Source: Paracoccaceae bacterium (GTDB taxonomy: Bacteria > Pseudomonadota > Alphaproteobacteria > Rhodobacterales > Rhodobacteraceae). Taken from it: a stretch of DNA of 38,807 nt. Position 1 is the stretch's first letter, and every line of letters begins with the position of its first letter. The translations under genes and the position numbers were made by a program. The stretch is from positions 1 through 38,807 of the forward strand of contig PUKW01000048.1 in NCBI GenBank assembly GCA_003550665.1, read 5' to 3'. The notes below the pieces were generated by a model. That model did not search any database. It was not told the DNA's origin and saw only the letters and a program-made list of their open reading frames with translations. This document shows, in pieces, positions 2,264-11,460 of this stretch.

Positions 2264-3093
2264 GACGCGAGCACCGCGCGGCGCAGCGACGGGTCGACCT
2301 CGGGCCGGAGCCCGAACCACGCTTCGAACCCCGGCACCGCCTGGTGCAGGAGCATCCCGAGACCGTCGACCGTGCGCAGGCCCCGCGCCGTGGCATCCGT
2401 CAGAAACGGCGTCTGCAGCGGGGCATAGACGAGGTCCGTGACGAGCGCCCCCGCCGCGAGCGCCGCGGCGGGCAGATGGAGCGCGGGCTGCCCCGACATG
2501 CCGAGCGATGTCGTATTGACCACGGTCGCAGCATCCGCCACGAGCGCCTCCGGATCGTCCCAGTCGACCACCGTCACGGCCGGACCGAAGGCGTCGCGCA
2601 AGGCTTCCGCGCGCTCGCGCGAGCGATTCGCGATTCGCAGCTCGGGCGCGCCAGCATCGAGCAGACCCGCTACCACGGCGCGCGCCGCGCCGCCCGCCCC
2701 GAATACCGCCGCAGGCCCCGCGGCGGCGTTCCAGCCAGATGCCGACTGGCGCAGATTTTCGATGAACCCGTAACCATCGGTGTTGTCGGCCTCAAGCGCC
2801 CCGCCCGAAACGAAGGTCAGCGTATTCGCCGCACCGATGCGGGCCGCGCGATCGGTGACGCGATCGGCGAGTGCGAGCGCGGCTTCCTTGTGCGGGATGG
2901 TGGCGTTGACCCCGCGAAACCCCATGCGCGGCAGCGCGCGCAGCACCTCGGCCAGATCCGCCGGTTCGACCTCGAGCGGCACGTAATGCCCGGCGATCCC
3001 GTAGCGGCGAAGCCAGTGGCCGTGCAGCCGCGGCGAGCGGCTATGGGCAATGGGCGATCCGAGAACGCCGGCGAGCGGGATGGCTTCACTCAC
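2260..3093 (-). CDS. aroE: Shikimate dehydrogenase
   Basis: GVLGSPIAHSRSPRLHGHWLRRYGI...NATIPHKEAA...NTDGYGF; GTG start at 3093 gives a 4-bp overlap with the maf stop. Confidence 0.95.
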   Translation of the reverse strand: MSEAIPLAGVLGSPIAHSRSPRLHGHWLRRYGIAGHYVPLEVEPADLAEVLRALPRMGFRGVNATIPHKEAALALADRVTDRAARIGAANTLTFVSGGALEADNTDGYGFIENLRQSASGWNAAAGPAAVFGAGGAARAVVAGLLDAGAPELRIANRSRERAEALRDAFGPAVTVVDWDDPEALVADAATVVNTTSLGMSGQPALHLPAAALAAGALVTDLVYAPLQTPFLTDATARGLRTVDGLGMLLHQAVPGFEAWFGLRPEVDPSLRRAVLAS

Positions 3094-3689
3094 GTCTCGA
3101 TGACCCCGCATTGTCCCAGATACCCGATCAGCGAGAGCAGCGGCAGCCCGAGAATGGCATGATAGGACCCGTCGATCCGGGCAAACAGGCGCACCCCTTC
3201 GGCCTCGATCCGGAACCCACCGACCGAGCCCGAGACATCCTCCCAGTTGCGCGCAACATAGCTGTCGAGATAGGCGTCCGAGAGCTTGCGCATCAGGAGC
3301 TGTGCCGTCTCGACCGCGCGCCATTGCGGCGCGCCGTCCCTGTAGATGACCGCCGCGGAGACGAGCTGCGGGCCGCAGTCGCGCATCCGCGCGAGCTGCG
3401 CGCGCAACACCTCGGGGCTTTCAGGTTTGGCAAGGATGGCGCCATCGAGGACAAGCACCTGATCGGCGCCGACGACCATCGCCTCGGGGGCGCGCGCCGA
3501 GATCTTGCGAGCCTTGTGCTCGGCGAGCGCGTCGGCAATGTCGCGCGGTGACGCCCCCTCTTCCTCGAGCGCGGCGCGAAGTCCCGCCTCGTCGATATCC
3601 GCAGCCCGGCAGGTCACGGCGATCCCGGCACCTTCGAGGAGCTGGCGGCGGATCGGGGATCGGGAGGCGAGGATCAGGTCGGGCGCCAT
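3090..3689 (-). CDS. maf: Maf family nucleotide pyrophosphatase
   Basis: LILASRSPIRRQLLEGAGI N-terminal Maf signature; GADQVLVLDG. Confidence 0.92.
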   Translation of the reverse strand: MAPDLILASRSPIRRQLLEGAGIAVTCRAADIDEAGLRAALEEEGASPRDIADALAEHKARKISARAPEAMVVGADQVLVLDGAILAKPESPEVLRAQLARMRDCGPQLVSAAVIYRDGAPQWRAVETAQLLMRKLSDAYLDSYVARNWEDVSGSVGGFRIEAEGVRLFARIDGSYHAILGLPLLSLIGYLGQCGVIET

Positions 3690-4092
3690 GGGGAAAAGCC
3701 TGTTGATGAAGCACGCCGAGCCATCGGGACAGGGCGCACGCGGCGGTGATTGCAGCCCCGGGAGTTGCGTGAAGCGGGATCAAAGTCAAGTACGGGGTCC
3801 GGTCATCCACATGGGACAACATCGCGCGACACCTTGTGGACAAGCGCCCCTCCGCTGCGAAACGGAGAAACCATACAGATGTTAATCCTTGCTTAAGACC
3901 TTTCAAATATCTGAATTAAAAATAAAAATTAAGGGTATGTCGAACTTTCCAGAGTTATCGACAGTGTTATCCACAATGCGCCTTGATGTGCATGCACCAG
4001 TTGATGAACCGGTAATTCCACTTCCCCCCAGCGCCATCATCATCATCATCTTTCTCTTCATTCTTTATAGGTGTAGGACCCGAGGAGGCACC
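3690..4092. promoter_or_regulatory. oriC: Candidate chromosomal replication origin (oriC)
   Basis: 403-bp divergent intergenic region; TTATCCACA at 3967-3975 (exact DnaA box), TTATCGACA 3955-3963, TCATCCACA 3803-3811, TGTGGACAA 3835-3843 (reverse), each of the last three one mismatch from consensus; 19-nt pure A/T tract 3914-3932; partition genes nearby. Confidence 0.8.
3882..3896. promoter_or_regulatory. CtrA-type motif TTAA-N7-TTAA
   Basis: TTAATCCTTGCTTAA, exact two half-sites with 7-nt spacer, next to the A/T tract of the candidate oriC. Confidence 0.5.
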
Positions 4093-4557
4093 ATGACGGG
4101 ATCCGACATGACCGATCTGCTCTGGAGCGCGTATCCGTGGGTGAAGGCGGGACATATCATGGCGGTGATCGCCTGGATGGCCGGGCTGTTCTACCTGCCG
4201 CGTCTCTACGTCTATCACGTCGAACGCGGCTGGGACGCGGAACCGACGCGTGCGCTGTTCGAGACGATGGAGGAACGGCTGCTTCGCGTGATCATGAACC
4301 CGGCGATGATCGCGAGCTGGGGCTTCGGCCTCATCCTGGTGGCCACGCCGGGGCTGATCGACTGGTCGATGATCTGGCCCTGGCTCAAGGCCGTCGGGAT
4401 CGCGGCGATGACATGGTTCCACATGTGGCTGGCCGGGCAGCGCCGCAAACTCATGGCCGGCGACGATGTCCTGACGGGTCGCGGATACCGGATGATGAAC
4501 GAAGTCCCGACGCTGCTGATGGTGCTCATCGTTGTGTCCGTGGTGGTCAAGTTCTGA
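4093..4557 (+). CDS. hemJ: HemJ-type protoporphyrinogen oxidase
   Basis: LLWSAYPWVKAGHIMAVIAWMAGLFYLPRLYVYHVE...NEVPTLLMVLIVVSVVVKF; start after GAGGAGG at 4093, ORF-track extension to 3889 runs through the candidate origin. Confidence 0.9.
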   Translation: MTGSDMTDLLWSAYPWVKAGHIMAVIAWMAGLFYLPRLYVYHVERGWDAEPTRALFETMEERLLRVIMNPAMIASWGFGLILVATPGLIDWSMIWPWLKAVGIAAMTWFHMWLAGQRRKLMAGDDVLTGRGYRMMNEVPTLLMVLIVVSVVVKF

Positions 4558-7250: not shown

Positions 7251-9127
7251 GGGTGTTTCACGTGAAACATGTCGATGTCGTCGTGGTTGGGGGCGGGCAC
7301 GCCGGCGCGGAGGCCGCGCATGCGGCTGGGCGTCTCGGTGCGCGGGTTGCGCTCGTCACACTCAAGCGCGATGCGATCGGGGTGATGTCCTGCAATCCGG
7401 CGATCGGAGGGCTCGGCAAAGGCCATATCGTGCGCGAGATCGACGCGATGGGCGGGATCATGGGCCTCGCTGCCGACGCGGCCGGGATCCAGTACCGCCT
7501 TCTCAATCGCCGGAAGGGCCCCGCCGTTCAGGGACCGCGCGTGCAGGCCGATCGCGCGCTCTATCGCGGCGCCGTCCAGGCCATGATCGCTGCCAATCCG
7601 CAGATCGACCTGGTCGAGGGCGAGGTGGTCGATTTGCGCGTCGATCACGGGCGCGTCTGCGGGGTCGTTCTCTCGGATGGATCGGAAATCGTGGCTTCGG
7701 CCGTGGTTATCACCACCGGAACCTTCTTGCGGGGCTGCGTCCATATTGGAGACCGCAGTTACCCGGCCGGCCGGGTTGGCGAAGCGCCCTCGATCCGCCT
7801 TGCCGACAGGATTACCGATCTCGGCGTCGGATTCGGTCGCCTGAAAACCGGAACACCCCCGCGACTCGACGGGCGCAGCATCGACTGGTCCGTTCTGGAG
7901 GCGCAGCCGGCCGACACCGACCCGGTGATGATGTCGTTTCGCACCACGGTTCCGCAGAATCGTCAGGTCGCCTGCGGAATCGCGCACACGAATGCGCGCA
8001 CTCATGACCTGATCGCGGAGAATCTGCACCGCTCCGCCATGTATGGCGGCCGTATCGCCAGCTCCGGGCCCCGATACTGCCCGTCGATCGAGGACAAGAT
8101 CGTGCGGTTCAGTGACAAGCCGTCACATCAGATCTTCATCGAGCCCGAGGGTCTTGATGACGACACGGTGTATCCGAACGGAATCTCGACATCGCTACCC
8201 GAGGACATTCAGGACGCCTTCGTCAGGAGCATCCGCGGCCTCGAATCCGTGCGTATTCGCCAGCCGGGCTACGCGATCGAGTATGACTATGTCGATCCGC
8301 GTGCGTTGCGGGGGTCGCTCGAGATGAGGGATCTGGATGGGTTGTTCCTGGCCGGACAGATAAACGGAACGACCGGATACGAGGAAGCGGCCGGGCAGGG
8401 ACTTCTTGCGGGGATCAACGCGGCGCACAGTGCAACGGGCCGTGGGTCGCTCATGCTGACGCGCGCGCAGGCATATATCGGTGTGATGATCGACGATCTC
8501 ACGACCCGGGGCGTTGCCGAGCCGTATCGCATGTTCACCTCGCGCGCGGAATTCAGGCTGACGCTTCGTGCCGATAACGCCGATGAACGTTTGACCGGGC
8601 TTGCCAATGACATCGGGCTGATCGATGCGGATCACCGGGCCGCGTTCGAGGCGAAAGCGACCGCGCTCGAGCAGGCGCGGGTGCTGCTTGGATCGCTCGA
8701 ATGGACGCCCGATGAGCTGCAACGGCTGGGATTGCGGATCAACCGGGATGGCGTGCGGCGCTCCGGGCTCGATCTGCTGGCGTTTCCGGGCGTCAATTTC
8801 GACACGCTGGCAGGCTTCTCTCCACGCGTGGCGGCGATTGCCCCGCAAATTGGCGCCCAGATCGAGCGTGAGGCGCAATATCGTCATTACATGAAGCGTC
8901 AGGACGCGGATGCGCGCGCCTTGCAGCGCGACGCCGCCTTCGTGCTTCCCGGGGATCTCGATTATGACCGCTTCGGGAGTATCCCCACGGAATTGCGGGA
9001 AAAACTTCGGGCGGCGCGTCCGGAGACAATCGACCAGGCGTCGCGGATTGATGGGATGACACCGGCGGCCCTGACCCTGCTGCTCGGGCATGCGCGCCGG
9101 GCGCAGTCCCGCGAGGCCGCCGAATGA
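7247..9127 (+). CDS. mnmG: tRNA uridine-5-carboxymethylaminomethyl(34) synthesis enzyme MnmG (GidA)
   Basis: [55 protein letters not shown]; 4-bp overlap with mnmE. Confidence 0.97.
7254..7269. promoter_or_regulatory. parS: parS centromere site (ParB binding)
   Basis: TGTTTCACGTGAAACA, exact 16-bp palindrome, encodes VFHVKH in the mnmG N-terminus. Confidence 0.93.
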
Positions 9128-9759
9128 CGGGCAGCGGGCCCGGCGGGCATGTCGGTCCGGAGTTGCGCGATGTTTCACGTGAAACACTGGAGCGGCTCGA
9201 ATGTCACGGCGCCCTGCTCACCAAGTGGAACCCGCGCATAAACCTCGTCTCCGCATCGAGCCTTGAGGAGTATTGGTCGCGGCATATCCTTGATTCCATG
9301 CAGCTCTTTTCCCTGCGCCCGGCCGATGCGTACTCCTGGGTCGATATCGGGACGGGCGGTGGATTTCCCGGCCTCGTCGTCGCGATTATCGCCGCGGAGC
9401 AGCAACCACGGATGCGGTTCACTCTTGTGGAATCGGATCACCGAAAGGCCGCGTTCCTCTCCCACGCGATCCGTGAGACCGGCGTCGCCGCGCATGTGAC
9501 CACCGCGCGCGCGGAAGATACGCCGCCGCTCGGCGCGGATGTCATCTCGGCGCGCGCGGTGGCCCCGCTTGACCGGTTGCTCAAACTGGTCGAGCGGCAC
9601 CTTGCGGCGGAGGGGCGCGCGTTGTTGCCCAAAGGCGCGGCTGTCGCGGATGAGCTGCGCTTGGCACTTGAACATTGGCGCTTCGATCTTCACAAGATAC
9701 CGAGCGTGACCAATCCTGGGGCAACGATCCTGTCGATCGGAGATTTGAGCCGTGTCTAA
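9124..9759 (+). CDS. rsmG: 16S rRNA (guanine-N7) methyltransferase RsmG (GidB)
   Basis: [62 protein letters not shown]. Confidence 0.95.
9171..9186. promoter_or_regulatory. parS: parS centromere site (ParB binding)
   Basis: TGTTTCACGTGAAACA, exact 16-bp palindrome, encodes VSRET in the rsmG N-terminus. Confidence 0.93.
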
Positions 9760-10579
9760 GCTGAACCTTCGCGCCCGTCCGCAGATCATCGCGATCACCA
9801 ATCAGAAAGGTGGCGTCGGCAAGACAACCACGGCGATAAATCTCGCCGCGGCCCTTGTGGAGCGCGGCGGCAAGGTTCTCGTCGTGGATTCCGATCCGCA
9901 GGGCAACGCGTCGACGGGGCTCGGCATCTTTTCGGGCGCGCGCGGCAGCACGACCTACGACCTGCTGCTGGAGGGGGCGCCGCTGAAGAACGTCATCCAT
10001 GGCACCCGCATCGACGGCCTCGATATCGTGCCCGCCACGACGGATCTTTCCTCCGCCGACTTCCAGCTCGTGACCAACGAATCGCGCAGCTTCCTGCTGC
10101 GCAACGCGGTCAACCGGCACAGCGTCGGCGAACTCGGCTACGATTACGTCCTGATTGACTGCCCCCCATCCTTGAGCCTGTTGACGGTCAATGCGATGAT
10201 CGCCGCGCATTCCGTTCTGATACCGCTGCAGAGCGAGTATTTCGCCCTCGAGGGGCTGTCGCAGCTCATGCTGACGATCCGGGAAATCCGGCAGAGCGCG
10301 AATCGCGCCCTGCGCATCGAGGGCGTTCTGCTGACGATGTATGACAAGCGCAACAACCTTGCTCAGCAGGTGGAACGCGATGCGCGCGAGACGCTCGGGG
10401 AGCTTGTCTTCGAGGTTGTTGTGCCGCGCAATGTCCGCGTCAGCGAGGCGCCGTCGCACGCCTTGTCGGTGCTGCAATACGATCCGACGTCGCGCGGAAG
10501 CCAGGCCTATCGCGCCCTCGCGGCGGATCTGCTCTCGCGTCACGGTGATCCCAAACCGCTCGAGAGGGTGGGCGCATGA
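9752..10579 (+). CDS. parA: Chromosome partitioning ATPase ParA (Soj)
   Basis: RPQIIAITNQKGGVGKTTTAINLAAALVERGGKVLVVDSDPQGNASTGLG deviant Walker A; DYVLIDCPPSLSLLTVNAM. Confidence 0.97.
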   Translation: MSKLNLRARPQIIAITNQKGGVGKTTTAINLAAALVERGGKVLVVDSDPQGNASTGLGIFSGARGSTTYDLLLEGAPLKNVIHGTRIDGLDIVPATTDLSSADFQLVTNESRSFLLRNAVNRHSVGELGYDYVLIDCPPSLSLLTVNAMIAAHSVLIPLQSEYFALEGLSQLMLTIREIRQSANRALRIEGVLLTMYDKRNNLAQQVERDARETLGELVFEVVVPRNVRVSEAPSHALSVLQYDPTSRGSQAYRALAADLLSRHGDPKPLERVGA

Positions 10580-11460
10580 GCGAGAAGCGCGGTCTGGGAC
10601 GCGGGCTTTCGGCCCTCATGGCGGATGTCCAGCTCGATCCGGGGCCGCCCGCGGCCGGCGAGGTCGAGCGCGCCGACATGCGGCTTCCGATCGAGCGTCT
10701 GGCCCCCAATCCGGACCAGCCACGGCGAAACTTCTCCGACACGGCGCTGGAGGAGCTCACCGAGTCGATCCGCGCCAAGGGCGTGCTGCAGCCGCTGATC
10801 GTGCGGCCGAGCCCGACATCCGAAGGCGATTACGAGATCGTCGCCGGAGAGCGCCGCTGGCGCGCCGCGCAGCGCGCGCAGCTGCATCAGATCCCGGTGC
10901 TTATTCGCGACCTGACCGACACCGAAATGCTCGAAGTCGCGATCATCGAGAATATCCAGCGCGCCGACCTCAACCCCGTCGAGGAGGCGGTCGGGTATCG
11001 CAACCTGCTCGAGCGTTTCGGACACACCCAGGAGCAGCTTGCCGCCGCGCTTGGAAAAAGCCGAAGCCACATTTCCAACCTATTGAGATTGCTTCATCTT
11101 CCTGATGATGTCATCGATCTGCTGCGGGACGGAAAATTGAGCTCAGGGCATGCGCGGGCGCTGATCACCTGCGAAAATCCCGCAGAGGTCGCGCAGCGCG
11201 TGGTTGCGCGCGGACTTTCGGTGCGTGAAACCGAAAAGCTGACCAAGCGATCCGCACCCGGACAGAATCGGACGAAACCGCGGAAAACCGCGGCGAAAGA
11301 CCCCGATACCCGCGCGCTCGAACAGGACCTCTCCGCGCATCTCGGCATGGCCGTCGATATCGCGCATGTTCCCGATACCGGCGCGGGCGTCGTCACGATC
11401 CGCTACACCAGTCTCGAAGATCTCGACAAGCTCTGCCAGGTTCTCTCGACACCGCGCTGA
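10576..11460 (+). CDS. parB: Chromosome partitioning protein ParB (Spo0J)
   Basis: EKRGLGRGLSALMAD; PNPDQPRRNF; GERRWRAAQRAQL; IENIQRADLNPVEEA. Confidence 0.97.
   Translation: MSEKRGLGRGLSALMADVQLDPGPPAAGEVERADMRLPIERLAPNPDQPRRNFSDTALEELTESIRAKGVLQPLIVRPSPTSEGDYEIVAGERRWRAAQRAQLHQIPVLIRDLTDTEMLEVAIIENIQRADLNPVEEAVGYRNLLERFGHTQEQLAAALGKSRSHISNLLRLLHLPDDVIDLLRDGKLSSGHARALITCENPAEVAQRVVARGLSVRETEKLTKRSAPGQNRTKPRKTAAKDPDTRALEQDLSAHLGMAVDIAHVPDTGAGVVTIRYTSLEDLDKLCQVLSTPR

Follow-up and report, generated by a model that had tools for sequence, protein, structure and literature searches.

A conserved candidate chromosome replication origin with a CtrA-type site between maf and hemJ in a member of the Rhodobacteraceae

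The DNA analyzed here (the window, 38,807 nucleotides) is a complete contig (C329) of a 3.15-Mb draft genome in 371 contigs, whose nearest named relatives belong to the Rhodobacteraceae. A divergent intergenic region of 403 bp (positions 3690-4092) separates maf on the minus strand (3090-3689, start at 3689) from hemJ on the plus strand (4093-4557, ATG at 4093). The genes on both sides point outward, with dnaQ, coaE, aroE and maf following one another on the minus strand to the left and hemJ, rho, mnmE, mnmG, rsmG, parA and parB on the plus strand to the right; mnmE was assigned from its reading frame, with no profile scan behind the name. An initial annotation had proposed this gap as the primary chromosome origin, and all the elements that it listed were found in place, including parA (9752-10579, plus strand), parB (10576-11460, plus strand) and two parS sites 3-8 kb from the gap, both of which are perfect TGTTTCACGTGAAACA motifs (7254-7269 and 9171-9186). 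The dnaA gene lies elsewhere, on contig C9, without any DnaA box in the 6 kb surrounding it, and therefore its locus is no rival origin.

Four DnaA-like 9-mers with at most one mismatch were found in the whole window, and all four are inside the gap, which makes up 1% of its length. Two of them form a tandem, TTATCGACA (3955-3963, plus strand, one mismatch) followed after three bases by the perfect box TTATCCACA (3967-3975, plus strand). The other two, TCATCCACA (3803-3811, plus strand) and TTGTCCACA (3835-3843, minus strand), carry one mismatch each, the latter coinciding with a conserved column block in the alignment. This search confirms the one exact and three one-mismatch boxes, two of them in tandem, of the initial annotation. 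The expected number in the window is 1.36. Three of 100 window shuffles reached four or more, and dinucleotide shuffling of the gap produced no such case in 5000 rounds. The tandem TTATCGACA-N3-TTATCCACA is the single occurrence in the draft genome of the pattern TTATCNACA-N3-TTATCNACA when one mismatch is allowed. Two poorer boxes are also present, namely TCATCAACA (3701-3709, minus strand, two mismatches), whose counterpart in many relatives is a better box, and the degenerate TTCCCCCCA (4022-4030, plus strand, three mismatches), whose place is taken in many relatives by a box at or close to consensus.

Duplex stability in the window, taken over 50 bp, is lowest at 3882-3932 (-54.4 kcal/mol against a mean of -82.1 and a standard deviation of 5.0), and the two least stable 50-bp segments are both located in the gap or at its end. 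The 19-nt pure A/T run at 3914-3932 lies within this segment, and the AT-richness is kept in the relatives (81% AT at 3910-3929). The run had been proposed as the unwinding element. It is indeed easily melted and conserved in composition, but conservation in the gap is highest in a block at 4022-4066 instead; the run is a second easily melted segment. As an intergenic region with clustered DnaA boxes and an easily melted A/T-rich segment, the gap has the make-up of a bacterial oriC.

Searching at the DNA level with the gap yielded nothing beyond short matches, in three relatives. Its sequence diverges too quickly for this approach, and the relatives were therefore gathered via hemJ. More than 180 Rhodobacteraceae have an orthologous gap at this position, about 400 bp long; of 108 newly sampled genomes, 106 have it between maf and hemJ (312-480 bp, median 402), and a similar gap is present in most of 80 named loci of the family. 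Counting boxes with no more than one mismatch, these gaps have 6.0 per kb and the maf sequence next to them 0.025 per kb, a density about 240 times higher in the gaps. Four relatives have no hemJ here, and their gap, between maf and rho, keeps box-like sites. Several Paracoccus-type loci (L039, L085, L096 and L106) have no maf between aroE and the gap, while the boxes and the block at the 3' end of the gap are kept upstream of hemJ.

In the alignment of 83 gaps this block, at about 4030-4060, is the most conserved; its consensus is CCCTACA..A.CATCATC.TTTT with a T-rich tract behind it. In the window, positions 4022-4066 comprise the degenerate DnaA box, a G+C cluster, five ATC repeats and a T-rich tract, the repeats and the tract (ATCx5 plus TTTCTCTTCATTCTT on the top strand, 4036-4065) being a candidate element for single-strand DnaA binding and unwinding on the bottom strand that the initial annotation does not list. 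On the bottom strand, 4036-4065 divides into ten successive 3'-NAN-5' triplets. No other part of the window has so long a series; the runners-up have nine triplets each and seem to sit in hydrophobic codons. In most relatives a box precedes the block, as in TTATCCACA-GGCC-CTACA, and a box with at most two mismatches was found within 40 bp upstream of it in 141 of 181 relatives compared to 22% at random gap positions. The block 4022-4066 is probably a DnaA-loading and unwinding module.

The arrangement resembles the basal unwinding system of the Bacillus subtilis type in having a box, a short G+C cluster and a trinucleotide repeat with adenine in the middle of ten bottom-strand triplets. The published search rule for this system requires three or more 3'-NAN-5' triplets close to (within 16 bp of) a DnaA box with no more than two mismatches, and the commonest DnaA-trio triplet is 3'-GAT-5' (PMC8287927). 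The number of triplets at 4036-4065 exceeds that minimum, but the repeats in the window are 3'-TAG-5' instead of 3'-GAT-5' and the nearest box is TTCCCCCCA with its three mismatches. As the triplet rule holds while the box rule and the consensus do not, we did not file the element as a basal unwinding system, although it may work like one.

An exact CtrA-type full site, TTAA-N7-TTAA with the sequence TTAATCCTTGCTTAA, was found at 3882-3896 and is absent from the initial annotation. The pattern occurs 12 times in the genome including the gap site, against six for the reversed pattern, and it appears in shuffled gaps at a frequency of 0.0034. The genome contains both ctrA (contig C182) and chpT (contig C128). 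In a sister species (L004) the equivalent place reads TTAACTATTGCTTAA; all eight half-site positions are identical and three of the seven spacer positions differ, at a whole-gap identity of 68%. A full site is present in 18 of 186 family gaps, so that spacing 7 accounts for 18 TTAA pairs compared to 0-6 for each of the other spacings from 3 to 14. The independent set of gaps is the fairer test since the peak at spacing 7 was first noticed in the other set, and on its own it gives five TTAA pairs at this spacing where the others average about 1.25, a modest enrichment. None of the control tetramers has a comparable peak at 7 (ATAT peaks at 5). By these counts, CtrA-type sites are enriched in a minority of the predicted origins of the family.

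GC skew, which had been suggested as a check of the origin, was sampled in seven relatives, the whole-replicon evidence for this draft genome being that of its relatives. The switch at the locus is clear in three of them, all complete. In G007 negative skew gives way to positive at 3.46-3.48 Mb, where hemJ is at 3,477,014. In G017 it does so from the 1.16-1.18 to the 1.18-1.20 Mb segment, with hemJ at 1,181,512 and the reverse switch between 3.2 and 3.7 Mb; in G073 it turns from negative to positive at the maf/hemJ locus. Three others are weak or displaced, with a weak change slightly to the right of the locus in G144 and G079, and in G161 the most negative skew near the locus and positive values only several hundred kb further on. 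The seventh, G187, has a locally opposite switch and is uninformative because its skew changes sign repeatedly along the chromosome. In the window itself the skew is -0.0004 to the left and +0.0475 to the right of the gap, the left part being only 3.9 kb long.

The address of the gap can be compared with the accepted alphaproteobacterial one, as the origins of Caulobacter and Rickettsia are bounded by hemE and COG1806 (PMC1914354); a literature search on origins of the hemE type from Sinorhizobium and Caulobacter gave no hits. The gap in the window is bounded by maf and hemJ instead, whereas a member of the same family (G008, locus L162) has the order maf, COG1806 (Kinase-PPPase, PF03618), gap, hemE (PF01208), hemJ, rho. 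Because this genome retains both neighbors, the window appears to have a Caulobacter-type origin that is missing them, and the simplest reading is a single ancestral origin with both neighbors lost in this lineage. The gap resembles Caulobacter crescentus Cori in its homologous address (via G008), its DnaA boxes, its A/T-rich segment and its TTAA-N7-TTAA site, and differs in lacking the COG1806 and hemE flanks, in having one full CtrA site compared to five in Caulobacter (PMC1914354), and in that neither IHF consensus was matched; no GANTC motif was found either. G008 itself appears as an intermediate between the two arrangements.

We consider the gap 3690-4092 to be the oriC of the primary chromosome with a probability of about 0.95, as the initial annotation had proposed, in view of the synteny, the box density, the conservation in the family and the skew switches in complete relatives. 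It is an ordinary origin for the Rhodobacteraceae, the usual one at the usual address, since that address is homologous to the accepted one in Caulobacter. The same boxes could serve the transcriptional control of maf and hemJ with the origin lying elsewhere, as DnaA doubles as a transcription factor, yet the skew switches at this locus in complete relatives, the array persists where hemJ or maf is missing and the partition genes and parS sites are close by, which makes such a role on its own very improbable. More weight can be given to the reading that 4022-4070 is the promoter or leader of hemJ outside the origin and that melting begins only at the 3914-3932 run. The block is 23-70 bp upstream of hemJ, where a T-rich leader is plausible, and the run is inside the least stable segment with its AT-richness conserved. 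However, the block and an adjacent DnaA-like box are kept where hemJ is not the next gene (clearly in L171 and L172, more loosely in L169 and L170), the block is also kept in L162 with hemE next and in the Paracoccus loci without maf, and the frequency of boxes just upstream of it is well above that at random positions. As the block is retained without hemJ and before hemE, we assign it to the origin and not to hemJ alone, and the leader reading is doubtful.

The CtrA-type site is more evenly poised. It could be a chance product of an A/T-rich, drifting DnaA-box sequence with no role, which is compatible with the gap being oriC and about as probable as a functional site. It overlaps the position of a DnaA box in relatives, only a tenth or so of the family gaps have it, its enrichment in the independent set is modest, and ctrA is non-essential in the Rhodobacterales studied so far (PMC8116508). 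On the other side are its rarity in shuffled gaps, its intact half-sites in the sister species next to a changed spacer, the prominence of spacing 7 for TTAA pairs and the presence of ctrA and chpT. CtrA is reported to influence replication in some Rhodobacterales (PMC8116508), and we found no report of CtrA sites within a Rhodobacterales oriC in the literature searched, where absence is not proof of novelty. The bolder proposal that in a subset of Rhodobacteraceae CtrA binds an oriC site that replaced a DnaA box, thereby coupling the non-essential CtrA phosphorelay to initiation, together with opening via an ATC-repeat element in a register unlike the 3'-GAT-5' DnaA-trio, is unlikely as a whole. 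A CtrA site within the oriC of some genera would nevertheless make a direct route from CtrA to replication testable, and this site is the only part of the origin that a specialist might follow up.

For the maf-hemJ gap as oriC, the following course of initiation can be proposed from these motifs. DnaA would bind at 3701-3975, where a perfect box is arrayed with several weak ones, and extend via the weak 4022-4030 box to the bottom strand of the ATC-repeat and T-rich block (4036-4065), where the duplex would start to open, aided by the A/T-rich segment around 3897-3932. The helicase would then be loaded and forks would depart both ways, with ParB at the two nearby parS sites segregating the new origins, while phosphorylated CtrA at 3882-3896 might hinder DnaA.

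On this reading the origin of the lineage is fixed and a family-wide footprint of Rhodobacteraceae origins is obtained. A set of 101 Rhodobacteraceae oriCs predicted with Ori-Finder has been curated with proximity to parAB as a criterion (PMC6699656). The gap agrees with that set in family, DnaA boxes, close parAB and a local GC minimum; the account given here differs in naming the flanking genes, as the main text of PMC6699656 does not mention maf, hemJ or hemE.

Two further observations were made among the relatives. The many sign changes of skew along the complete G187 chromosome (C1) suggest repeated rearrangement. In six loci of the Roseobacter/Roseovarius type (L041, L046, L055, L066, L095 and L108) the CtrA-type site has a recurrent position, with about 21-22 bases between it and the maf start.
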